46,010 bases of DNA, from positions 1 through 46,010 of the IMG/VR virus record IMGVR_UViG_3300005265_000744; one strand, written 5' to 3'. Numbering within the stretch: position 1 is the first letter of the stretch; every line of letters begins with the position of its first letter. This DNA comes from a virus. Positions 156 to 36,972 of this stretch are shown here, piece after piece. The notes under the pieces are model-generated. The model did not search any database. It saw nothing but the letters and a program-made list of their open reading frames with translations, and was not told the origin of the DNA. A program made the translations under genes and the position numbers.

Positions 156-1844
156 CTATCCCTTGAATATTCTAACTGTGTTTGTTGTTGGTAATGAACC
201 AACTATTAGTTCTTTCAGCTTATCGCCATCAACATCAGCAACATATATTGCTTCAGGAGTTACTGTTGCTTCATAAGCTTCGATTGCCTGCTTTGTCCAC
301 AAGATCTTGTCTGGGTATTTTACAAGACTTACAAATGGTCTAAGGCGGGATGATTCTACTCTTTGGTAAAACGCTACTATTTCTTTTAGTCCATCCCTAT
401 CTGCATCTATTGCAATTGTTCTAAACAGTGGTGAAAGTGTTACAACTGTGCCTGAGTCAACAACGATATTTGTTAGTAACGTAATTGGATTTGTCTTTAA
501 TACAAGGCTTACACTATCTATAAAAGCTAGTACTAGGTCTTCTGGATTGACTACAGCTACATAGTATGGTGTAGCCTTCGACATTAAGACTGCAAAAGCA
601 TAGAATGGACTTAGTGTACAATAGCCTGAAAGTGGTGTATTCGATTTCACAATCTGTAACGTAGTTGGATCAATAAACATAAATAAACCATCTAATGAAA
701 CAGCAAAGATCTCATCAATGTTATCATCATCAATATCCTTACAAACAGTAAATACACAGTTTGTAGTTGGTAACGATGTTTCATTAATAATTGTACCATC
801 AAGTTTAACTACCATTAGTTTGCTCTCTGATGACATTAAATAATTGACAACAATTTCCCTAATACCATCACCATCAACATCGCAGAAACAAGGTCTTGTT
901 GCATATATTGCAGATGGCAGAGTAATTGTTTTTATTATACCAATTCCTTCCTTAGCGATAACAAGTAGTATGTAATACTCAGTTGCTGATGTATAAACTC
1001 GAACAATAGTCACTATTTCAAACTTGTAATCATTATCGAGATCTCTTGCAAATAAATGTAGAATCTCCATTGATTGTCCTTGCTGAGGTATTGATATCTT
1101 AAATAATTGTTTACCAGCAAGATTAACAATGTCTATATATTGAATTTTATCAGATGCAATCAACTTTATTATGCCGTCCTTAATAATTAGCATTGGATAA
1201 ACTAATCTATTTAATATCTTAAGTTTCTTTTCAAACTGTTTTGAGTAGGCATCTATTACATATAAAGTACCTGTCTCTGCATCAAGTGCGAATATTTCGT
1301 CTCTTCTGTCAGCATCATAATCAACTGCTGTTACATGTGTTACTAGGGTGCCTCCAAGCGTAATATCTGTATAGACTGTTCCTGTGGCGAAATCTCCATC
1401 TGTTCCGAAGTCGTTTGTCATGCCTGGATCTCCATATGGATCAAATGATCCTGATGGTAGTACTATGACTGGAGCAGGTGTTGGTGGCACTAGTAAAACG
1501 CTCAAGATTTCCTGTGCTATTGTTGGGTCAATTCCATAGCTCTTTATAAAGTACTCTAGAATACCCTTTGCAGAGATTTCATATGCCTTTGCCTTAAGTC
1601 TACCAAGTTCTTTCAATAGCTTATTCGCAAATGCTATGTACTTTGCTCGTTCAGGACCAGTAACAGCATACTTGTCTAGTATAGGTCTTATAAGGTCTTG
1701 AACATCAGAGAAAATGTATAAACCAGCTAGACCACGGTCAAGCGCGATATTTCTTACCTGACTAAGCCTACTACTAATTGTATCAGGTACGTATTTTGCT
1801 TTCCACTTCTGATATCTATCAGTACCACTTCTATACAAGGTCAT
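156..1844 (-). CDS. Capsid-domain / beta-propeller fusion protein (minor virion protein)
   Basis: This 562-residue protein has two parts. Residues 1 to about 118 are closely similar to the major capsid protein encoded at 26734-27108; both contain LYR, KW.AK, VPDT, DLIRPILDKY, TGP.RAKYI and FANKLLK. After a Pro/Gly linker (about 120-150), residues 155-562 hold six Asp-rich calcium-type repeats of the form DxDxDxxxE, for example DVDGDGIREI and DVDGDKLKEL. These are typical of FG-GAP/VCBS (integrin-alpha-like) beta-propellers. I infer a minor capsid subunit that co-assembles with the coat, perhaps at the virion ends, and displays a propeller for host or glycan binding. It is the leftmost gene and reads toward the terminal repeat. 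A TATA-like AT-rich stretch lies near 1873-1889. Confidence 0.85.
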   Translation of the reverse strand: MTLYRSGTDRYQKWKAKYVPDTISSRLSQVRNIALDRGLAGLYIFSDVQDLIRPILDKYAVTGPERAKYIAFANKLLKELGRLKAKAYEISAKGILEYFIKSYGIDPTIAQEILSVLLVPPTPAPVIVLPSGSFDPYGDPGMTNDFGTDGDFATGTVYTDITLGGTLVTHVTAVDYDADRRDEIFALDAETGTLYVIDAYSKQFEKKLKILNRLVYPMLIIKDGIIKLIASDKIQYIDIVNLAGKQLFKISIPQQGQSMEILHLFARDLDNDYKFEIVTIVRVYTSATEYYILLVIAKEGIGIIKTITLPSAIYATRPCFCDVDGDGIREIVVNYLMSSESKLMVVKLDGTIINETSLPTTNCVFTVCKDIDDDNIDEIFAVSLDGLFMFIDPTTLQIVKSNTPLSGYCTLSPFYAFAVLMSKATPYYVAVVNPEDLVLAFIDSVSLVLKTNPITLLTNIVVDSGTVVTLSPLFRTIAIDADRDGLKEIVAFYQRVESSRLRPFVSLVKYPDKILWTKQAIEAYEATVTPEAIYVADVDGDKLKELIVGSLPTTNTVRIFKG

Positions 1845-6897: not shown

Positions 6898-7419
6898 TTA
6901 CTTTCTGATTAGTGCTTGGTATGATCCTGAGCCCTTTGCTGTTTTTATGATCTGACCCATCTTCTTTGCATCTACCACGAACTCAGTATATGTCATCCTG
7001 TAGTTTCCTGTCTTAACCTCGTAGTAGGCAAAGAAGATAAGTGCACTATTCTTTGCAACTCTCTTGATCTCGCTATATGTTCTGTCTTTGTTTGTCACAA
7101 ACATGACAACATTCCAGTATAGGATTACATCTGCCACGTCATCTCTAATTGGCAAGTACTCGGCGACTGCTCTAATCACATCAATTCCTGCTTTATGGAT
7201 CAGCTTTGCGAACTTCTCGTATGGCTCAACCGCTATCTTTCTTCTTGCATCTAGTGTCTTGATCTTGTCGCCATAGCCTGCACCTACATCTATCAATGTG
7301 TCGACATGCTTTGGATAGTTCTTCTTGATGAACTCTGGTACACCTGTTGCTTGCTTGCAGATACCTAGCTTGTAGGACTTTGACTTGTTTGGTGTGTTTT
7401 GTGTTACCACTGTCTTCAT
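6898..7419 (-). CDS. Class I SAM-dependent methyltransferase
   Basis: This 173-residue protein has a clear Rossmann-type methyltransferase core. DVGAGYGDK is the SAM-binding motif I, KIAVEPYEK is motif II with its acidic residue, and AEYLPIRDDVADVILYWNVVMFV is the motif III-IV region. That pattern is typical of type-11-like methyltransferases. The substrate is unknown. The start at ATG 7419 is fixed by a class B promoter with a palindrome exactly 12 bases upstream. The 6449-6880 gene follows it. Rudiviruses also encode small SAM methyltransferases, though I cannot show direct orthology. Confidence 0.8.
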   Translation of the reverse strand: MKTVVTQNTPNKSKSYKLGICKQATGVPEFIKKNYPKHVDTLIDVGAGYGDKIKTLDARRKIAVEPYEKFAKLIHKAGIDVIRAVAEYLPIRDDVADVILYWNVVMFVTNKDRTYSEIKRVAKNSALIFFAYYEVKTGNYRMTYTEFVVDAKKMGQIIKTAKGSGSYQALIRK

Positions 7420-7431
7420 GGCCGAGCTATA

Positions 7432-7467
7432 GTTAGCATGCTAACTTTTAAGCATTACCAAATTTGG
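7432..7467 (-). promoter_or_regulatory. Class B promoter module of the methyltransferase gene
   Basis: On the minus strand this reads CCAAATTTGG (7458-7467), a CTTAAAAG TATA box, then the perfect palindrome GTTAGCATGCTAAC (7432-7445), then 12 bases to the ATG. The same arrangement with the same 12-base spacing occurs before the genes at 20270 and 21431. The palindrome spans the likely transcription start, as expected for an operator. Confidence 0.8.
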
Positions 7468-7549
7468 GATTCAACTCCACATGACCATCCTGACTCCCAA
7501 AAATCCAAATTTAACTTAAATACTAGACTAGCTATAGGAGGATCTAGTC

Positions 7550-7738: not shown

Positions 7739-7931
7739 TGCAAGTAAGACTAGACTCATCCTTAAACTTGAGTCTTTAGACTTGGTTCATTGTCCATATG
7801 ACTTGCCTAGTTTACTTGACCTAGCTGTTATCTACTACAATGCTGATTGTTTGCACTGTAAACTAGAGGCTTCTGACCTTATGAGAGTTGTAGCTTATTA
7901 CTGTGAAAGATGTAAGAAGTGTCTCTCCTAA
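7713..7931 (+). CDS. Small Cys-rich protein, 72 residues, probable zinc binder
   Basis: It overlaps the previous gene by 26 bases in another frame, suggesting translational coupling. C-x2-C pairs at about residues 46-49 (CLHC) and 64-70 (CERCKKC), plus an upstream HC, suggest a zinc-binding fold. The protein is otherwise unrecognised. The arrangement recalls small zinc-finger regulators of archaeal viruses. Confidence 0.65.
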   Translation: MSNPQNLDSASKTRLILKLESLDLVHCPYDLPSLLDLAVIYYNADCLHCKLEASDLMRVVAYYCERCKKCLS

Positions 7932-7981
7932 TTCCACATTTGGTAATGTTTAAAACTGTAGACGCAAAACTTAGCATAGCC

Positions 7982-8110
7982 ATGAAGACAAACTCTGTTA
8001 AAAAACATGAACCGAAATTGAAAAAATTGAAAAACAGGCAAAACACTGAAATAGCACTGATTGAGGTCAAACCACAGGAGTCAGAACCAACAATCGAAGA
8101 TGTTGAGTAA
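7982..8110 (+). CDS. Short Lys-rich protein, 42 residues
   Basis: It starts at ATG 7982, about 29 bases after a GTTTAAAAC TATA box (7948-7956) whose upstream part (CCACATTTGGTAATG) resembles the class B promoters. An earlier in-frame start at 7919 lies upstream of this TATA box and is unlikely. The protein is lysine-rich at its N-terminus and acidic at its C-terminus. It has no recognisable family, and its reality rests mainly on the promoter. Confidence 0.45.
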   Translation: MKTNSVKKHEPKLKKLKNRQNTEIALIEVKPQESEPTIEDVE

Positions 8111-10545: not shown

Positions 10546-11193
10546 TTAGGTTTCATCGATTGAAATAAGATAACCTTCAGGATCATACATGAATGTTATT
10601 GTTCTTGTCTCACCTGTTAACTTGTCTGTTATGGTCATTTTCTTGATGTTCTTGTTTTCATCATATTCAATATCAATCTTAAGTGGGTTTGTCTTGACAT
10701 CAGGATCTTCTAGCAGAGGCATTAATGTCTCCTCAATTGCCTTTCTAGTACCTTCATAGACTTGCTCAGACACTAATATACCTAGTTGCTTAGCTAATAT
10801 TCTTTCTGTTGGGTCAATAGTTACGCCAAGTTGTTGAGCAATTTCACGCAATGGCTCTTCTCTTAAACCAAGTGCAAGCCAATAAATAAACAGAGCATTT
10901 GCCTCTCTCTGAAGTGCCTCATCCCTATAACGCATTTTACAATACCAAATACCTTGTGCAAACCAAACATATGCATGTTCACGAATTAACTCGTCTGGAT
11001 ACTTTGAAATAACAGACTTAACAATTTTGATAAGTTCCTCATGAATAGCCTGATATTGAATAATCTTATCAAGTGCTATTGGCTTAGTCCTCCCTAGATA
11101 AACAGCATAGACCTCAGCATTCATCTTACGATCCCAAAGCTTTGCTCTCTGCTCAGGAGTCCTATACAATACATGCTTACGCCTACGAGCCAT
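10546..11193 (-). CDS. Hypothetical protein, 215 residues
   Basis: The N-terminus is very basic (MARRRKH). The body is helical to about residue 170, followed by a beta-hairpin-rich tail (about 172-215) of the form IEYDENKNIKKMTITDKLTG, ending in acidic residues. It is encoded in the minus-strand structural-type block. The basic start could contact DNA, but no family is recognised. Confidence 0.6.
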   Translation of the reverse strand: MARRRKHVLYRTPEQRAKLWDRKMNAEVYAVYLGRTKPIALDKIIQYQAIHEELIKIVKSVISKYPDELIREHAYVWFAQGIWYCKMRYRDEALQREANALFIYWLALGLREEPLREIAQQLGVTIDPTERILAKQLGILVSEQVYEGTRKAIEETLMPLLEDPDVKTNPLKIDIEYDENKNIKKMTITDKLTGETRTITFMYDPEGYLISIDET

Positions 11194-12017: not shown

Positions 12018-12561
12018 TATATCCTGTTATTAATGTTTCTCCTCCGCTAATAGGTTTGGGAATCGATACATCGTATCCTGTTATGAGTGAATGGTCGACA
12101 CTAATAGGTTTGGGAATCGATACATCATATCTTGTTATAAGTATGTGTTTTACTATTGGGAACTTTGCAAGCAGTTCTTCGAGTTCTTCTACTCTTGTTT
12201 CTAATTGTTGAATTTGTCGTATTAGAGTTGATTGAAGCTCATCAAAGACTGAAACGATTGTACGCATGGCGTCAACAAGCTCATTGTGATCTCTCGCAAG
12301 GACTATGTCTCCTGAACGGACATATCTCAATGATGCGACTTTTGCTCTCAAGGTTTCAAGGGTTTTTAGTACATTACTCATATCAATGTTATACTGTGTT
12401 TGCAGATATGTAACGATTTCGAGTAGGGTCTCATATGTTAATACACATGCATCATTTACTAGGTTTTTGTCAGATGGCTCTATAATATCAACAAAGTCTC
12501 TAACATAGCGTAGTTTACTAACTATTGTCTTTAGTTTTGATAGTTTTTCCTGGTAGGTCAT
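11992..12561 (-). CDS. Coiled-coil fibre-like protein with C-terminal peptide repeats
   Basis: It has 189 residues. A YVRSGDIVLARDHNELVDA stretch (about residues 79-97) matches a motif common in phage and archaeal-virus fibre or appendage proteins. A heptad coiled coil follows (about 100-135). The tail has an 18-residue tandem repeat built on LITGYDVSIPKPIS (two good copies and a degenerate third). The start ATG overlaps the stop of the 12561-13088 gene by one base (TAATG), indicating translational coupling. An oligomeric virion spike or fibre shaft is the likely role. Confidence 0.7.
   Translation of the reverse strand: MTYQEKLSKLKTIVSKLRYVRDFVDIIEPSDKNLVNDACVLTYETLLEIVTYLQTQYNIDMSNVLKTLETLRAKVASLRYVRSGDIVLARDHNELVDAMRTIVSVFDELQSTLIRQIQQLETRVEELEELLAKFPIVKHILITRYDVSIPKPISVDHSLITGYDVSIPKPISGGETLITGYSAGIGATS
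12030..12145 (-). repeat. 54-base coding tandem repeat
   Basis: A 43-base block at 12047-12089 recurs at 12101-12143, a period of 54 bases, with a partial third unit toward 12030. It encodes the 18-residue repeats at the C-terminus of the fibre-like protein. Such repeats expand and contract easily, and may tune fibre length or receptor binding. Confidence 0.85.
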
Positions 12562-13088
12562 TAAACCTCGATTAGTATTGGTATTGGGTCATAAATATCA
12601 AAGTTGTATTCTCTGCAGATTTGTGGCTCAAACCATCTGAAGTTCAGGTTTTCGTCGATATAGAACATTGTTGCGTGTCCTACTCTCAGCCTTGGAATGT
12701 AGATCCAGACCTTTCCAATTGCGAGATTTAGCCTTTTCCTGTATCTTAGCATGCTCACGAGGCCTTGACAAACGTTTGAGTAGTCATCACAATCAAATAT
12801 TGGGTGTTGATACTTTTTGTCGCCTAGGTACTCACAGCACATCTTCTTTAGCTCTTCGATATCCTCCCTAGTAACGACATGATACCAAGGATCTGCAACG
12901 TAGATTTTACAGTTGTTAACAAGCCATCTCCAAAGACACCTAGGCTTTAGCCTGAATTTCTCAAGGATTATATCGACAAGTTCATCTGCGGACAATACTC
13001 TACGTTCTGCAGTTATAGAAGCTTCAACAGTTAGTTCCTTTATTGCAAGTCTAGGAATCTTATAAAGTCTGTAGATCCTAACTACCAT
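12561..13088 (-). CDS. Papain/transglutaminase-fold-like protein with Cys-His-Glu triad
   Basis: This 175-residue protein has a C-terminal half with FDCDDYS (C100), a long spacer, GHATMFYID (H138) and RWFEPQ (E154). The DCDD...GHA...EPQ pattern is shared by a papain-like family found in phages and in the C-terminal domain of Marasmius agglutinin. The Cys, His and Glu would form the catalytic site. It begins the minus-strand structural block and could process virion proteins or act at the cell envelope during entry or exit. It may instead be a non-enzymatic fold. A GTTTATAC TATA-like box lies just upstream at about 13090-13097. Confidence 0.6.
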   Translation of the reverse strand: MVVRIYRLYKIPRLAIKELTVEASITAERRVLSADELVDIILEKFRLKPRCLWRWLVNNCKIYVADPWYHVVTREDIEELKKMCCEYLGDKKYQHPIFDCDDYSNVCQGLVSMLRYRKRLNLAIGKVWIYIPRLRVGHATMFYIDENLNFRWFEPQICREYNFDIYDPIPILIEV

Positions 13089-13110: not shown

Positions 13111-13119
13111 ACTTAAATA
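13111..13119 (+). promoter_or_regulatory. TATA box for the 13.14-kb RNA candidate
   Basis: ACTTAAATA lies in the gap between divergent genes. With normal archaeal spacing it would start transcription at about 13138-13142, exactly where the structured segment begins. The 13279 gene has a separate TATA box (CTTTTATAA, 13244-13252), so this one is not needed for it. Confidence 0.6.
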
Positions 13120-13137
13120 GTTGTCCTAACAATTACA

Positions 13138-13236
13138 CACGAGTGATGAACGTTAGTCACAGGCTGTGGCACGGTCGCCTCGGGTCGCGACCGTGCGCAG
13201 ATCTCAGGTGAAGACTAACCACGCTGCTGATCTCTC
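13138..13236 (+). ncRNA. Structured GC-rich non-coding RNA candidate
   Basis: This segment of about 100 bases is far richer in G+C than its surroundings. A 10-bp perfect hairpin, GCACGGTCGC (13169-13178) with GCGACCGTGC (13187-13196), has loop CTCGGGTC. A short CTG/CAG helix lies below it, then an asymmetric internal loop, then an outer helix GTTAGTC (13152-13158) with GACTAAC (13213-13219). GTGATGA (13143-13149) and CTGA (13227-13230) at the edges match box C and box D of archaeal C/D RNAs, although the GC hairpin inside is unusual for that class. A TATA box is correctly placed upstream and T-rich sequence follows from about 13244. It is not a tRNA, because no T-loop or acceptor stem is seen. 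Confidence 0.6.
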
Positions 13237-13278
13237 AACAATACTTTTATAATTACTTTAGTAATAGTCTATACGAGC

Positions 13279-14970
13279 GTGGTTCACACAGAAACAATTT
13301 CTAAGAAGAAGTCAGGACATAGAGACTCTGGACATGGCTGGATTTATTTAGGCACGGACAAGTATTTTGGGCAGGTTTACATTTATAAGGACTTCTCGAA
13401 ACTTCGTGTAAAACTCTATGACCCAGGTAAGAAAAAACAAGTATTTTTCACTCTTGAGTCAGCTCTTGGATTCATTTATTTGCTCAGGCTGGACCACCTG
13501 TTGATTGAAGCTGCTTATAGCGAGAAGTTCAAGAAGGATCCATTTCTAGCAGAGTTCATCATCAAGCTAATTGCCATGTACAAGCAGCTCCGCAGAAAAG
13601 TACGTAGGCTAAGAGGAATTGCAGATGTCAAAGAAATACTACAGATTAGGGATAGTAGCTTGCAAGTCCTGTATAACCAAGTCCTGCCACTTGTAAAGAA
13701 GCGTGTTGGCAAGCTGCCAAAACTACGTCCTCTCTACAGCAGGAAAAACCCTCTTAAGAATCAATACTGGAAACGAGTCCAGAGAAGCATCAGGATCATA
13801 ATAGACTCACGCTACCACAAGAAAGACGCATGGCAAGTCTACCTACGCTGCCTGGACATCATCGAGAAGCTGAAAGAGAAAGGCTACATCATTGTAAGGT
13901 CGATTGACCCATATAAGTTCCTCAGCATTAGAACTAGAGAGATCCCAATTGATGCAGAATTCGCGATAACGAAAGGAAACCTAAACATTCTATTTAACAA
14001 GCTTATAGAGACGATAATAAGAGCACGAATACAGCAAGACCCATACCTGCTGACAAAGTTCACTGAATTTGTGGAGAAGCATTATCCATTACTATTTAGA
14101 AAAGTTCAGAAATTATATGAAAAGAGGAGAAAGCAAAAGAAGAGGAATTACGATCCATTTGACTTCTACCTATACCTACTGAACGTAATTTGGAAAAAGA
14201 GACCTGACATCTTAGAGGCATTTGCAAAGTATTACGTGAAAGAGCTGAAGGTTATTGAAGGTGATTTGATCGAGAAGGCTATCAACGACTATAAGAAACG
14301 TAAGATACTAGTTGTAGTTGAGTGTGAGCTAAAGCGTTCAGCATTCTTAACATCTGAGGATGCAATTATAAGAGGCATTACTGAAAGGTTAGTAAATACT
14401 GACTTGGAGATTAACAAAGCTGGATTAAAACTAAAGCTTGTTGGTGCATTTATAGGTGTTAAAGTAAGTTCAGAAAAAGCAATTGACGTTGATGTTACCG
14501 AGTATGTGTACGATCTTGGAAAGTTTATGACCGAGAGAGGGCTGCAAAAAGTTATTGCTAAAATTGTTAGGAGGGTTGCAGAGAGCAACATTCCAATTAA
14601 CTCAGAATGGTATGTAACATTTGTCTATGCACCTGAAAATGTTGCTGATGAATTTCTAAAGGATAGAGAGAAACTTAGAAAAGCGATTGAGAGATGGACA
14701 ATATTCAAGTCAATTGCAGAGTTTAGATATGTGGGTGGATGGAATCTAGTAGATATTAGAAGATACCTTGTAATAAGATATTCAATACCAAGACCCATTG
14801 CATTTACGCAAGTGACAATGTTTGTGAAGAGAACAAGAGTCAGAGTTCTAATTTATATTCCAAAGAGAGGACAACTAGAGATTGAGACAAGTCTAGTTAA
14901 TCCAAATAGAATCAGAATAATATCTTATAAACCACCAAAGACTATACTACAGGCTATTCACCACAAATAA
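13279..14970 (+). CDS. Large basic hypothetical protein, 563 residues
   Basis: I do not recognise this protein. It is strongly basic and mostly helical at about residues 45-330, with Arg/Lys-rich stretches such as KQLRRKVRRLRG (about 98-109). A mixed alpha/beta region follows (about 335-563). The N-terminus contains a possible small beta domain (WIYLGTDKYFGQVYIYKDF). It starts at GTG 13279, leaderless after a TATA box at 13244-13252. Its charge suggests nucleic-acid binding. No nuclease, polymerase or terminal-protein motif could be identified. Its end overlaps the convergent gene at 14954 by 17 bases. Confidence 0.75.
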   Translation: MVHTETISKKKSGHRDSGHGWIYLGTDKYFGQVYIYKDFSKLRVKLYDPGKKKQVFFTLESALGFIYLLRLDHLLIEAAYSEKFKKDPFLAEFIIKLIAMYKQLRRKVRRLRGIADVKEILQIRDSSLQVLYNQVLPLVKKRVGKLPKLRPLYSRKNPLKNQYWKRVQRSIRIIIDSRYHKKDAWQVYLRCLDIIEKLKEKGYIIVRSIDPYKFLSIRTREIPIDAEFAITKGNLNILFNKLIETIIRARIQQDPYLLTKFTEFVEKHYPLLFRKVQKLYEKRRKQKKRNYDPFDFYLYLLNVIWKKRPDILEAFAKYYVKELKVIEGDLIEKAINDYKKRKILVVVECELKRSAFLTSEDAIIRGITERLVNTDLEINKAGLKLKLVGAFIGVKVSSEKAIDVDVTEYVYDLGKFMTERGLQKVIAKIVRRVAESNIPINSEWYVTFVYAPENVADEFLKDREKLRKAIERWTIFKSIAEFRYVGGWNLVDIRRYLVIRYSIPRPIAFTQVTMFVKRTRVRVLIYIPKRGQLEIETSLVNPNRIRIISYKPPKTILQAIHHK

Positions 14971-17875: not shown

Positions 17876-17930
17876 AGTAAAACTAAATCTAATCCCAAAT
17901 TTGAGAGATGTACATTTTTAGCCACCATTT

Positions 17931-17955
17931 TACTACACCTAGCTGAGGTGTAGTA
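17931..17955. promoter_or_regulatory. Class C palindrome upstream of the DpdA-like gene
   Basis: Arms TACTACACCT and AGGTGTAGTA flank a 5-base centre, and the element ends 2 bases before ATG 17958. An almost identical copy lies at 36925-36949 before the primase gene, and a looser copy at 45778-45805. A CCCAAATTTG element at about 17893 is also shared with class B promoters. Confidence 0.75.
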
Positions 17956-17957
17956 GA

Positions 17958-19103
17958 ATGCCAAGCGTCTGGTATGATCCCAAGAGGCGAAGATGGGTTA
18001 TTCGCCTATCCAGAAACAAAACACGAACACTTGGACTATGGTCAGGTTTCAAAGAAGCACACTCATTTATTGCAAGCCGGATTACAGGCAAATTTAAATT
18101 CTTCTTCGTTATATCATCTGCCGATGTCCTAAACATAGCCAAGGCATTCATACATCTAAAACAAGTAGTACCAGATCTCACAAGGAAGATAGGTCTCCTG
18201 TTCTCGTTTGCAAACTTTGCAAAGATTAATGATCGAGGTAGGGTAATTGGCTATGACAGAGAGACTCTAGAGGCAATGAAGATGCTTAAGGAACATGGAT
18301 TTGAGATCATGGTAGATTCAGGTGCTTTCCACGTTTTAGCACGTAAGATTCCTGTTGAGAAGTTCCTGAGCTACATAGACGACTACATCAGATTTGTCAA
18401 TGAGCACCTTGACCTAATTGATTGGTTTGTAACAGCGGATATACCATGTGATGCACGTCCTGCAAAAGAAATCCAAGAAATGCCAAACAGATGGAAAATC
18501 GAGCAAACCGTCAAGAATACAATCTACATCATTGACAGGTGTCAGGATCCCAGGAAGTTAATCGCTGTGGTACAGGGCTATAATGTACACGAGTATGTCT
18601 ACTGCTGTGATCTACTTAGACAACACGGGATTATTACTGCTAGGACAGGCGTTGGTAGTCTCTGTATCAGGAAGTATGACGGCTCTGAGGTATTAATTGT
18701 TGCTGACATACTCGATAACGTTAAGAAAAACTTGCCACAATGGGTCAAACTCCACGCATTTGGACTCAACGTCAAATTCCTACAACACAAGGAAATAGCA
18801 GAGAAGCTCTATTCAAGCGACTCCGCAGCATGGTCTTTCTCATATACAAGATTTGGCAGAGTAACCCTCGTTAGTCAGGACGGAGACTTTGTCGAACTCG
18901 ACTTAAACCTACACAAGTACCTGTACCGCGCAGTCAAGTTACTTGAGATGGTTGGCTACGACAGGAAAGAGGTTGAGACACTTAAGCAGCTTGCATACCA
19001 TGCTGGACTTAGATCTGAGCGGGTTCTCCGTGACCGCATCCTGATCTACAAGCTGCTAATACTAACTTATCTAAGTAAGTTAAGTCAACTTGGTCTACTC
19101 TAG
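17958..19103 (+). CDS. DpdA-like tRNA-guanine-transglycosylase-fold enzyme (putative DNA 7-deazaguanine transglycosylase)
   Basis: This 381-residue protein has a TGT-type barrel. VDSGAF (119-124) matches the TGT S-DSGGF motif with its catalytic Asp, VVQG (204-207) the substrate-binding IVQG, and GVGSLC (231-236) the GLAVGE loop. LHAFGLN (265-271) and SSDSAAW (286-292, D288) fit the nucleophile region of phage DpdA proteins. DpdA enzymes swap guanine in DNA for preQ0 or a related base. Residues 1-45 (WYDPKRRRWVIRLSRN and then LGLWSGFKEA) resemble an AP2 or integrase-arm DNA-binding domain, which would favour DNA over tRNA as substrate. The YhhQ-like transporter at 5139 could supply the base. 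The gene is controlled by a class C palindrome. Confidence 0.82.
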   Translation: MPSVWYDPKRRRWVIRLSRNKTRTLGLWSGFKEAHSFIASRITGKFKFFFVISSADVLNIAKAFIHLKQVVPDLTRKIGLLFSFANFAKINDRGRVIGYDRETLEAMKMLKEHGFEIMVDSGAFHVLARKIPVEKFLSYIDDYIRFVNEHLDLIDWFVTADIPCDARPAKEIQEMPNRWKIEQTVKNTIYIIDRCQDPRKLIAVVQGYNVHEYVYCCDLLRQHGIITARTGVGSLCIRKYDGSEVLIVADILDNVKKNLPQWVKLHAFGLNVKFLQHKEIAEKLYSSDSAAWSFSYTRFGRVTLVSQDGDFVELDLNLHKYLYRAVKLLEMVGYDRKEVETLKQLAYHAGLRSERVLRDRILIYKLLILTYLSKLSQLGLL

Positions 19104-20054: not shown

Positions 20055-20219
20055 ATGACATTGAGAAAGCCTGAGAGAACCTATATAGCAGAGGTCAAGG
20101 GACGACTAAAGAATGGTAAATACCTTGAGGGATATGTAACACTTCATATCAGCTTGCCTGCTGACCTAGTTGGTAAACGAGTTAAAATTCATGTTAAAAT
20201 TGAGCCACTTGAACAGTAA
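20055..20219 (+). CDS. Small strand-rich protein, 54 residues, paralogue of the 7550 product
   Basis: An open frame runs from ATG 20055 to TAA 20217-20219. The product contains HISLPADLVGKRVKIHVKIE, which aligns with TITVPRDWVGKNVKIIVKLI of the 62-residue protein at 7550. Conservation between two distant copies supports both as real genes. The fold may be AbrB-like or another small beta dimer, but this is not established. Confidence 0.65.
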   Translation: MTLRKPERTYIAEVKGRLKNGKYLEGYVTLHISLPADLVGKRVKIHVKIEPLEQ

Positions 20220-20221
20220 TC

Positions 20222-20257
20222 CCAAATTTGGTAATACTTAAAAGCTAGCATGCTAAC
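20222..20257 (+). promoter_or_regulatory. Class B promoter module of the 20270 gene
   Basis: CCAAATTTGG (20222-20231), TAATACTTAAAAG as BRE/TATA, then GCTAGCATGCTAAC (20244-20257), then 12 bases to ATG 20270. It differs from the 7432 palindrome at one base. Confidence 0.8.
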
Positions 20258-20269
20258 ATTATCACAGCC

Positions 20270-20947
20270 ATGAGAATGGAGAGACCACTAGTGCCAAAGA
20301 CGGCTATTGCAAAGATCAGGAGAACACTTACAAAGCGTCTACCACAGGAAGTTGCAGAAAAGACAGTTGTACTAATCCAGAAAGCATTAGAGCAGTTTAT
20401 TACGCTACATAACGACTACTACGCTCCTGATTATCAGTACTATAAGATTAGACTATTTGATGTTGTAAGGTTAACTCCATCTCAAACATTGGCAATGTTA
20501 GCTATCCTGAGACATGAAGCAGAGTATCCTGCAGAGAGAGCAATACCTCCATCTGAAAAAGTCTTTGAGAACTTCTGGATACCAATTGCATACATATTTG
20601 TTGGACTAGCAGAAGATCTAGAGACAAAGGAAAAGACAGTCGTTACAAGGTATAAGCTTTGGAATTTTGCAAAGAGACTAGAGTGTAAAGGAACAGAGAA
20701 TATGCCTGATGTATTTGAAGAGCAGGAAAATGCTGACTTCATGAAGAGGCAATGGGCTGTTTTTAATACAGCCGTGAAGATCGAGCTGTACTTTTGGTGG
20801 AGCGACTATGCAAAACTACCAAAGAGTCTATACACATTTGGAAAGCTAGTTGATGATTATGGAGTACTGCTAATCATAACTGAAGATGAAATTATTGCCT
20901 TCATGTTACTATTCAAAGCTTTTGAATTAGGAGATCAACAACAATAA
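20270..20947 (+). CDS. Hypothetical protein, 225 residues
   Basis: I do not recognise this protein. It is helical and rich in aromatic residues, with no Cys pairs, membrane segments or enzyme motifs. The class B promoter groups it with the methyltransferase at 6898 and the zinc-ribbon protein at 21431. It converges with 20956-21333. Confidence 0.65.
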   Translation: MRMERPLVPKTAIAKIRRTLTKRLPQEVAEKTVVLIQKALEQFITLHNDYYAPDYQYYKIRLFDVVRLTPSQTLAMLAILRHEAEYPAERAIPPSEKVFENFWIPIAYIFVGLAEDLETKEKTVVTRYKLWNFAKRLECKGTENMPDVFEEQENADFMKRQWAVFNTAVKIELYFWWSDYAKLPKSLYTFGKLVDDYGVLLIITEDEIIAFMLLFKAFELGDQQQ

Positions 20948-21380: not shown

Positions 21381-21418
21381 CCCAAATATGGGTAAAGCTT
21401 AAAAGTTAGCACGCTAAC
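21381..21418 (+). promoter_or_regulatory. Class B promoter module of the 21431 gene
   Basis: CCCAAATATGGG (21381-21392), TAAAGCTTAAAAG as BRE/TATA, then GTTAGCACGCTAAC (21405-21418), then 12 bases to ATG 21431. The upstream box here is itself a near-perfect inverted repeat. Confidence 0.8.
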
Positions 21419-21430
21419 CTACTCCTGGAC

Positions 21431-22336
21431 ATGAACGCGAGAAAGGTCTACACCTACGAGATCACAGATCTAATCCCAAGACTAACCGAGAAAACAGTCA
21501 GGAAAGGAAGGAACAAGTACAGATACAAATCACTAGTAGTCGAAGTCTATGGCAGTAAACTGCCTGATGACCTAAAGGTGCTACTATCTGGAGTAGGCAA
21601 GAAGAACGGTACAAAGGTTAGAGTCAAGGCAAAGCTAGTGATCGAGGTTGAGGTTGATGTAGAGAAGTTTGCTACAGAGAAAGAGTTTGAGAGAAAGGTT
21701 TGGGTTGTGGAGTCAGGAATCTATCGCGGTTACATAAACTACCTGAAGGCTGACATGGACCACTATGAAGTGATTGAGATTGTTGTAAGACCTGATAACA
21801 CAATCAAATTCAGGAAGATCTACAGTGATTATGGTCCAGGAGCTCTTGACAGGATTAGAGAGAAGTTTGGTGATATACCACACCTATTTGCACTACCGCT
21901 ATTTAGAGCATTAGGAGAGATTAGCGAGTACCTACACAGGATAATTGAGGATGAGAAGAGGTGTCCTGTATGCGGCTCTAAGCTGTTAGCTCTAGCAAAG
22001 AAGGGTCGATACAGCGATGACTACACAAAGATTAACATGTGGCATACAGGCTACTCGAGAGATATACATGAGATAAACAAGTACAAGTGTGTCGTCTGTG
22101 ACACAGAATATCTAGTTGAGTATGAGACATGGGATGCGAGATCTGTCCTGAACTGGAGAATTGCTGTTGTAAAAGATGGAAAGACCTACGAGGCCGCGAA
22201 ATATGGCATTACTGATGATGATAGTCTATACAGCTACTACCGTGGTATAGCAAAGCTTGCACAAGCACTTGGCATCCTAAAGATTGTGACATCTGACCCA
22301 TTTGAAGCACTAAACAATCTAATGCCACTTTCATAA
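21431..22336 (+). CDS. Zinc-ribbon-containing hypothetical protein, 301 residues
   Basis: Two knuckles, CPVCGS (about residues 178-183) and CVVCDTEY (about 219-226), form a likely zinc ribbon. The N-terminal 120 residues are strand-rich and basic, and the C-terminus is helical. No nuclease or polymerase motif is visible. Class B promoter control suggests a regulatory or early role. Confidence 0.65.
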   Translation: MNARKVYTYEITDLIPRLTEKTVRKGRNKYRYKSLVVEVYGSKLPDDLKVLLSGVGKKNGTKVRVKAKLVIEVEVDVEKFATEKEFERKVWVVESGIYRGYINYLKADMDHYEVIEIVVRPDNTIKFRKIYSDYGPGALDRIREKFGDIPHLFALPLFRALGEISEYLHRIIEDEKRCPVCGSKLLALAKKGRYSDDYTKINMWHTGYSRDIHEINKYKCVVCDTEYLVEYETWDARSVLNWRIAVVKDGKTYEAAKYGITDDDSLYSYYRGIAKLAQALGILKIVTSDPFEALNNLMPLS

Positions 22337-26733: not shown

Positions 26734-27108
26734 ATGCCACTGTATAGAACAGGTGTAGATAGATTCAAGAAGTGGAGTGCAAAGTTCGTACCTGACACAG
26801 TAGCTGCGAGATTCACACAGGTAAAGGATGTTGCAATGGACAGAGGTCAGGCTGGACTACTGAAGTTTGCTGATGCACAGGACCTAATTAGACCAATACT
26901 AGACAAGTATGGCATCACAGGTCCAGACAGAGCAAAGTACATCGGTTTCGCAAACAAGCTACTGAAGCACGTAGCAAGACATGGAGGTGCTGCAATGAGC
27001 GTAATTGCTGCAGGCCTAAAGGCATACTACGTCCAGGCATATAAGGCAGACCCAGCAATACTAGACGAGATTATCAACGTTATCGCAGGTATCGTCCTAG
27101 CATACTAA
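26734..27108 (+). CDS. Major capsid protein, rudivirus (SIRV)-type
   Basis: This 124-residue, nearly all-helical protein aligns by eye with SIRV-type rod-virus coat proteins as I recall them. Both have KW-x-AKF near the N-terminus, YGITGP-x-RA-x-Y in the middle and AGLKAYYV-x-AY-x-A-x-P-x2-LD at the C-terminus. In that family the protein forms a helical bundle that wraps A-form DNA in a rod-shaped virion. A second copy of the domain forms the N-terminus of the 156-1844 protein. The leader has CGAGGGTCT before ATG and a TTTAAG TATA-like box at about 26695. A long T-rich terminator follows, which fits a highly expressed single gene. Confidence 0.9.
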   Translation: MPLYRTGVDRFKKWSAKFVPDTVAARFTQVKDVAMDRGQAGLLKFADAQDLIRPILDKYGITGPDRAKYIGFANKLLKHVARHGGAAMSVIAAGLKAYYVQAYKADPAILDEIINVIAGIVLAY

Positions 27109-34077: not shown

Positions 34078-36012
34078 TTGGATAATATAACTGAGCACAG
34101 CGTGGTTAGGCTACAAATAGAGCTACAAGAAGTCAGGAAGTATCTACGTGAATTTGCCGAGAGATATAGAAGAGAGGTCCTAGCTTATAGACGATTTGCA
34201 ACTTACTTGACATGGCAGGACCTATTTACATCACTTGATTTCAAGAGACCCTCAATCGTAATTATTGAGTCTGGTAATGGTACAGGTAAAACGCAGAGTG
34301 CTTGTGATCTTGTAGCAATACTATCATCTGTAGAGTTCTTTGACAGAATCTACATACTTGAGCATACACATAGTGCCTGTGCCAACGTTGAGAATAAGCT
34401 TGCAGCACAGGGAATCAGAGTTATTCATTACTATGGACTTGAGTCAGGATGTAAAAACCGAAAACTGCTACAGAAAGCAAATAGACTCTGTGGCGTACCC
34501 AGCCTAGCTTGTAAGGTTTGTCCATACTTCAAGGAAAAGCACAAGGCAGCATACAAAATTGTAGAGGAAATTGTCACAGGAAAACTCTCAACAATGGCAC
34601 TTGCGGCAGAACACTCTGTTTGCTACTTGCCACTGCTCAAAGCATTTATCTTCAATCCAAGCATGGACGATAAGCTAAGGGTTCGTCCAATTATCGTAGT
34701 TCCGTACCAAGTCTTCGCAACCACAGTTGCTATTACTAGATTTACTAAGTATAGAGAGAGGCAGGCAAAAGAGCGCAGAGTCCTGATGATACTTGACGAA
34801 AGTGATGAGATGTTCTACTCGGGATTCAAGGTTGAGATACCAGACATAGAGCCAACAGACGAGGACAAAGACTTGCTTAAAATGTTTAGTCCAAAGACTA
34901 GACCACTTGACAAGATACTAACAATATTCGAGCAGGCAAAACAAATCTGTGAGAAGATTGTTGAAAACCGTGGCAGAGTAGATGATATGCTTGTAAAGAA
35001 GTACTACATGCTTCGTGAAGAGTTTGAGCCATTGCTAAGATCATTTGATAGGAGACGTAAGCAAATCATTAACTATGTCGTGGCAAACAAGATTAGAACA
35101 AATATCTTCATGATTGTTGATACATTAACACGATTCTTCAGCTTAATGCGACCTGACTACTCACTAAAGACATGTGAGTACCAGAATGGAATGTATGTAA
35201 TTACTGATTATGACTTTATGATTAGGTTTATGCTAGATCCAAACTATCCATACAAGAGCTTTTGGAAAATACTGCTCTCAGCTACATTCCCAACTGAAGA
35301 AATTGTAAAATCAATCTTTATTGCTCCTAGGACAAAGAAGAACATTTTGTCTGTACGTAGAAAGTTCAAGACTTATATTAACGTGTTTATAACTGCTTAT
35401 GAGATCTTTCCACTTGACATGGAGCATGTGAACCGAAACTACCTGATTGGACGTGTGTTAGATAGGATACTTGCATGCTTGTTTGATGTTGTTTACACGT
35501 ATCATTTCTATTTCAAGGAAAATGTCAATGCAATACTAATGTTCACTGGTAATAAGACACAGTTCAATGTGATTAGAAGTATCTTAAAGAAAAAGGTTAG
35601 CATATTGTATGAGGAAAAGGACTTCCTTAGAACGATGATTAAAATAGATAATGAGGTTATGGAGTTTGCAATTTCGTACTGTGGTAGTACTAAGGCAAGG
35701 TCACTTGATTTTGATCATGCAAACATTTCAATTGTACTTGCTCCGCTGCTCAGGCCACCTAGATGGGGTTACTACTGGGATATCATTGATTTTCAGAGGT
35801 CCGTAGCTGAGATTGTTCAGGCTGCAATGCGTATTGTCAGGAGTCCATGTCCACCAAAGCCTAAATTGATTGTCCTGGATTGTAGGCTACTAAAGCCATT
35901 TTACTACCGTCTATATCCCAGGTGGTTTAAGTTCTTGATTGACCATGCTTTCATTAAAACTCTTCCAAATCCAAATAGTCCATTTAATAGACGTAGACGT
36001 GTTGCTGCCTAG
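34078..36012 (+). CDS. SF2 helicase of the XPD/DinG Fe-S type
   Basis: This 644-residue protein has Walker A GNGTGKT (66-72) and a four-Cys set at C125, C138, C145 and C148 (ending in CKVCPYF), placed as in XPD/DinG 4Fe-4S domains. RPIIVVPYQVF follows (about 203-213), then Walker B LDESDE (239-244). LLSATFP is motif III-like (about 400) and QAAMRIVRSP is motif VI (about 581). XPD-type enzymes unwind DNA 5' to 3'. TTG 34078 is leaderless, with the TATA box near 34050. It begins the replication block with the 36115 gene, the primase, NrdD and PolB. The Fe-S cluster again suits an anaerobic host. Confidence 0.85.
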   Translation: MDNITEHSVVRLQIELQEVRKYLREFAERYRREVLAYRRFATYLTWQDLFTSLDFKRPSIVIIESGNGTGKTQSACDLVAILSSVEFFDRIYILEHTHSACANVENKLAAQGIRVIHYYGLESGCKNRKLLQKANRLCGVPSLACKVCPYFKEKHKAAYKIVEEIVTGKLSTMALAAEHSVCYLPLLKAFIFNPSMDDKLRVRPIIVVPYQVFATTVAITRFTKYRERQAKERRVLMILDESDEMFYSGFKVEIPDIEPTDEDKDLLKMFSPKTRPLDKILTIFEQAKQICEKIVENRGRVDDMLVKKYYMLREEFEPLLRSFDRRRKQIINYVVANKIRTNIFMIVDTLTRFFSLMRPDYSLKTCEYQNGMYVITDYDFMIRFMLDPNYPYKSFWKILLSATFPTEEIVKSIFIAPRTKKNILSVRRKFKTYINVFITAYEIFPLDMEHVNRNYLIGRVLDRILACLFDVVYTYHFYFKENVNAILMFTGNKTQFNVIRSILKKKVSILYEEKDFLRTMIKIDNEVMEFAISYCGSTKARSLDFDHANISIVLAPLLRPPRWGYYWDIIDFQRSVAEIVQAAMRIVRSPCPPKPKLIVLDCRLLKPFYYRLYPRWFKFLIDHAFIKTLPNPNSPFNRRRRVAA

Positions 36013-36903: not shown

Positions 36904-36924
36904 GTGACTCAAACCATTCCATCT

Positions 36925-36949
36925 TACTACACCTAGCTCAAGTGTAGTA
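36925..36949. promoter_or_regulatory. Class C palindrome upstream of the primase gene
   Basis: Arms TACTACACCT and AAGTGTAGTA flank a short centre. The element shares 23 of 25 bases with the one at 17931-17955 and lies 23 bases before ATG 36973. It links primase and the DpdA-like enzyme in one regulatory group. Confidence 0.75.
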
Positions 36950-36972
36950 GATTCCTCTTTGGGATTCCAAAT

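Follow-up and report, generated by a model that had tools for sequence, protein, structure and literature searches.

In the window, which is an entire IMG/VR virus record of 46,010 bases, the two flanks of a GC-rich hairpin were complementary to a single site lying over the start codon of the gene to their right. The hairpin spans positions 13152-13219, and the structure continues past 13252, where the original prediction had ended it, with the hairpin flanks pairing to positions 13276-13289. This gene (13279-14970, plus strand; GTG start codon 13279-13281) encodes a 563-aa basic protein of no recognised family. The placement of its start codon within a helix formed with upstream sequence was beyond chance, as judged from shuffles, Markov genomes, and a comparison among 46 genes. 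The reading that we tentatively prefer, at a confidence somewhat short of even, is that the element may be a structured RNA hiding the start codon of the 563-aa gene. Plus-strand transcription, masking in the cell, and any trigger are parts of this reading that we infer.

The hairpin was found as predicted. Both the 10-bp GC stem (13169-13178/13187-13196), closed by an 8-nt loop (13179-13186), and the 7-bp helix at the base (GTTAGTC 13152-13158/GACTAAC 13213-13219) were exact, and together with small bulges in the middle they form one 68-nt hairpin. Its folding energy was -31.9 kcal/mol on the plus strand (z -3.5) and -31.2 kcal/mol on the minus strand (z -4.5); with both strands folding comparably, energy gave no indication of the strand. 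The 50-nt window with the highest GC content in the genome was 13159-13208 (0.70 vs. 0.60 for the next best), and the two 80-nt windows of lowest MFE, with both strands searched, fell at the hairpin locus. The proposal of a GC-rich structured RNA was supported: no other part of the window has as strong a fold or as high a GC content, and the pairing extends non-randomly onto the start codon.

Several known identities were rejected for the element. A Rfam 15 covariance-model search gave 0 matches up to E = 10, and H/ACA, tRNA, and tmRNA identities were set aside for lack of a match. For an H/ACA sRNA, GACTAAC is followed by CACGCTG with no ACA box, and the apical loop CTCGGGTC is without the GA pairs of a k-turn. 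The 16-base pattern GTGATGAACGTTAGTC matched four unrelated IMG/VR contigs, not above chance expectation, and the 10-bp hairpin pattern matched two contigs whose GC-rich sequence was dissimilar to the viral locus. A replication origin at ~13 kb was also rejected: the cumulative GC skew has its minimum there, but skew at fourfold sites tracks only gene orientation, with no strand switch at 13.1 kb.

The pairing of the flanks forms two further helices. The 5′ strand of helix J1, GTGATGAAC (13143-13151, plus strand), pairs with 13282-13289 through 8 bp with A13146 bulged, and the 3′ flank strand of helix J2, CACGCT (13220-13225, plus strand), pairs with 13276-13281 through 6 bp that include the GTG start codon. 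The site opposite these strands, AGCGTGGTTCACAC (13276-13289, plus strand), is continuous. In the predicted fold of 13140-13295 the three helices meet with zero unpaired junction bases, and the start-codon pairs have a probability of 0.98. At 80 C the outer helix is predicted to be partly lost with the start codon still paired.

These junction helices were noticed post hoc, on inspection of the fold, and local and genome-wide nulls were used as an offset. The 14 flank pairs were reached in 0 of 3000 dinucleotide flank shuffles under a strict junction (null maximum 10), in 0 of 1000 shuffles under a loose junction (maximum 11), and at no hairpin of 40 Markov genomes (maximum 13). Among the 46 genes, no other had an upstream inverted repeat of at least 8 bp over its start codon. 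With the hairpin removed, the arm GTGATGAACCACGCT stands against the reverse complement GTGTGAACCACGCT (z -3.2; 10 of 2000 shuffles as good). Total folding energy was unexceptional under partial shuffling; 292 of 1000 sequences with the 5′ flank alone shuffled and 407 of 1000 with the downstream part alone shuffled were as stable. These non-significant partial-shuffle energy tests, the post hoc search, and the failure to find relatives would suit a chance origin, in which a GC-rich palindrome of unrelated source (e.g., a relic insertion) came to lie between divergent genes with accidental complementarity in its flanks. Such a coincidence is very unlikely, given that the flank complementarity exceeds all shuffles and that the GC content and fold rank top in the window.

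The main rival to RNA masking acts at the DNA level, and is possible if somewhat unlikely. In it, the locus would be a hairpin-bearing inverted repeat, GTG(A)TGAACCACGCT...AGCGTGGTTCACAC, on both sides of the promoter at 13245. Its arms would be paired regulator sites, one of them interrupted by a palindromic hairpin, and the repeat could act as an operator, a looping site, or a cruciform. Consistent with this, both strands fold equally well, including the junction region, where the minus-strand fold of -51.6 kcal/mol was as good as that of the plus strand. The motif also coincides with the predicted start of transcription. Besides this site, AGCGTGGTT was found only at 34099, close to a further divergent promoter, and in inverted form within the element. 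Palindromic promoter modules are clearly used by this virus (7416-7471, 20218-20273, and 21382-21435). However, the clear operators of the virus are short continuous palindromes, and here a 68-bp hairpin would split one site exactly at the junction, which would be tolerable for an RNA junction but not for a protein site. The hairpin also contains asymmetric bulges and plus-strand G-U pairs, which fit a DNA element poorly.

The promoter modules form a repeated set of ~55 bp, with a further copy at 7930-7990, in which a TATA-like box is followed by the palindrome GTTAGCAYGCTAAC. They sit just upstream of the genes at 6898-7419 (minus strand), 20270, and 21431, and are likely the operators of one viral regulator. 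The palindrome TACTACACCTAGCTgAGGTGTAGTA, repeated at 17925-17957 and 36919-36951 and more weakly at 7807-7839, lies directly before or near start codons and forms another operator-like family.

The divergent genes on either side of the element, 12561-13088 (minus strand) and 13279-14970 (plus strand), were present as open reading frames, as had been described. Neither had a detectable relative in IMG/VR or in up to 398 Thermoproteota genomes, and no relative of the 563-aa gene was found in phage records either. For the 563-aa protein, AlphaFold run on the single sequence gave a model too poor for use (pLDDT 43).

Two TATA-like boxes were located around the hairpin. The TATA box that the original prediction had placed upstream was present at 13112-13119 (CTTAAATA; reverse TATTTAAG), while its proposed role in driving a rightward RNA from ~13140 did not stand. 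A promoter model trained on the upstream regions of the virus's own genes scored the forward orientation above the reverse in 50% of bootstraps. The leftward orientation favored by an initial promoter model was likewise discarded as not robust under the retrained model and bootstraps. Read rightward, this box would give an RNA start near 13143-13145; it is also the sole candidate promoter for the leftward gene 12561-13088. The second box, CTTTTATA (13245-13252, plus strand), belongs to gene 13279 and outscores the box at 13112. It ranked in the top 0.3% of genome positions, and the distance from the motif end to the start codon was 26 nt (genome median 24), an arrangement that suits a leaderless mRNA of gene 13279. 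The helix edges at 13143 and 13276 are close to where the two TATA boxes would predict transcription to begin.

In the masking reading, the GC-rich hairpin would bring GUGAUGAAC and CACGCU, the flanks on its two sides, next to each other, and these would pair with AGCGUGGUUCACAC at 13276-13289, so that the GUG would be held inside a helix of a perfect three-way junction. This would most likely occur in cis, within a long-leader mRNA starting near 13143. Translation might be enabled by another RNA state, by a bound protein, or by a switch to the 13245 promoter; as this promoter would give a structure-free leaderless mRNA, the choice of promoter could define an off and an on state. Against masking, gene 13279 has its own, better TATA box at 13245-13252, past most of the structure; the minus strand folds equally well, so that a DNA-level feature also fits; and the 13112 TATA box gives no preferred orientation.

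The same pairing could alternatively be made in trans by an RNA of ~100 nt that would start at 13143, end at the U-rich stretch 13245-13250, and grip the 5′ end of the leaderless mRNA. A small antisense RNA of this kind, transcribed from the 13112 TATA box to about 13245 and acting on the leaderless mRNA of gene 13279, with an AAA-ATPase mRNA at 34098 as a further possible target, is unlikely. The paired site 13276-13289 does coincide with the mRNA 5′ end predicted from the 13245 promoter, the U-rich stretch is present, and CAGCGTGGTTAG at 34098-34109 (plus strand), close to the start of the AAA-ATPase gene 34078-36012, is perfectly complementary to 13215-13226 over 12 nt. However, the 13112 TATA box is without preferred orientation, and cis pairing is simpler. 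Matches of at least 12 nt somewhere in the genome were found for 234 of 300 random windows of equal size, so the complement at 34098 counts for little alone and is a possible but weak candidate for a second target of the RNA.

The suggestion that the element is a C/D-type guide RNA was upheld for its short motifs and failed for most other features. Exact matches were present to the box C consensus RUGAUGA (GTGATGA, 13143-13149) and to the box D consensus CUGA (CTGA, 13227-13230, plus strand), and a possible C′ box with one mismatch (GTGAAGA, 13208-13214, plus strand) lies 12 nt before box D. A C/C′/D set with C′ exactly 12 nt from D occurred once in the genome against 0.03 expected. The class is expected to carry internal C′ and D′ boxes with guides of 10-12 nt; the D′ box was degenerate only, as CTGT (14 nt after C) or CAGA/CTCA. 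Archaeal C/D RNAs are usually 50-70 nt and have a terminal stem beside boxes C and D that forms the k-turn for L7Ae (PMC7994747). The span from the start of box C to the end of box D is 88 nt in the virus, and in place of a k-turn terminal stem, 13140-13142 and 13231-13233 could share no more than a G-U or 2-bp match. The “guide” strands are paired to one another over 7 bp. No consistent 16S/23S target was found among 15 Thermoproteales rRNA sequences (best matches mostly 5-10 pairs), no guide target in a sample of ~30 tRNA loci, and no host-borne C/D homologue with the same guide in the genome_contigs collection.

Box C lies in helix J1, so its letters are better accounted for as part of the three-way junction. 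Highly improbable is a viral sRNA of the box C/D class whose single guide, CUAACCACGCUG, lying between C′ and D, would direct methylation at viral mRNA start codons or simply pair there. In its favor are the exact C and D boxes with a near-C′ in a single unexpected set, the complement of the full 12-nt guide at 34098, and the nucleotide opposite guide position 5, which is the G of GTG at both 13279 and 34102. Against it stand the missing terminal stem and clear D′, the excess length, the self-paired guide, the occupied box C, and the lack of a consistent rRNA target and of a tRNA or Rfam match in the searches above. A combined version, to which only a low probability is given, is that a small RNA of a rod-shaped archaeal virus uses the hairpin as a scaffold for two short strands, which would grip the 5′ end and start codon of a leaderless mRNA (13279, possibly 34102); its C/D-like boxes would let host L7Ae switch it between k-turn and clamp forms.

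The gene content of the window suggests a Ligamenvirales-like virus with a Thermoproteales host, on the basis of capsid, polymerase, and reductase matches. Inverted terminal repeats of 111 nt with 97% identity were present at both window ends, so the record is taken as a near-complete linear genome. A rudivirus-type major capsid protein (PF12193) was encoded at 26734-27108, with 41% identity to that of Acidianus rod-shaped virus 3. The virus also encodes a family B DNA polymerase and an anaerobic ribonucleotide reductase, the latter 66-72% identical to sequences from Thermoproteota/Thermoproteales MAGs. The gene content suggests a replication gene set larger than is known for typical rudiviruses.

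Additional capsid-related genes were observed. The gene at 156-1844 (minus strand), which adjoins the left terminal repeat, carries a second rudivirus-type capsid copy fused to an FG-GAP/beta-propeller-like C-terminal region, an unusual capsid fusion. The nearest capsid relative (56% identity) was on L059, a 7760-base contig in a Thermoproteota genome bin, and this contig is a fragment of an undescribed viral relative within a cellular genome bin. A 215-aa protein at 10546-11193 (minus strand) weakly resembled the L059 capsid region (24%, E 3e-4) and is a possible third capsid paralogue. The related MCP-bearing contigs L008-L035 and L059-L066 had no C/C′/D set, and a quick look at their GC peaks gave no evident counterpart of the element. 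The gene at 17958-19103 (plus strand) encodes a DpdA/queuine tRNA-ribosyltransferase-like protein, possibly serving DNA 7-deazaguanine modification in an archaeal virus.

Many mRNAs of such archaea are leaderless, and little is settled about RNA control of their translation. If the masking reading is true, the locus would offer a specific example open to experiment, in which a viral RNA covers the start codon of a leaderless gene together with its very 5′ end; no description of regulatory RNAs of this virus group was found in the literature searched. The locus also gives a caution, in that box C/D-like letters can arise as by-products of other helices.

Compared with the archaeal box C/D sRNAs, the viral element shares exact C and D boxes and a near-C′ 12 nt from D. 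It differs in its larger size, its internal GC hairpin, the lack of a k-turn terminal stem or D′, the use of its boxes in other helices, and the lack of an rRNA target in the search. A virus-encoded C/D RNA, v-snoRNA1, is known from EBV, a eukaryotic virus (PMC2718842); it would be the analogue if the C/D reading were right, but the defining C/D features fail in the present element. Trans-acting archaeal sRNAs whose pairing covers both a ribosome-binding site and a start codon were first reported for Methanosarcina mazei (reviewed in PMC3432209). Masking of the start codon by RNA pairing would be common to both, whereas in the virus the partner sequence directly precedes its target on the same strand, so that cis action would be possible. 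Start-codon-masking mRNA leaders are translational cis-regulatory RNAs, and synthetic riboswitches have been made in haloarchaea (PMC8241225). As in these leaders, a leader helix in the virus would occlude the start codon and an alternative fold or transcript would free it. In contrast to them, the viral element uses the flanks of a rigid hairpin in a perfect three-way junction, is without a recognised ligand domain or Rfam family, belongs to a hyperthermophilic virus, and has a second promoter between the structure and the gene.
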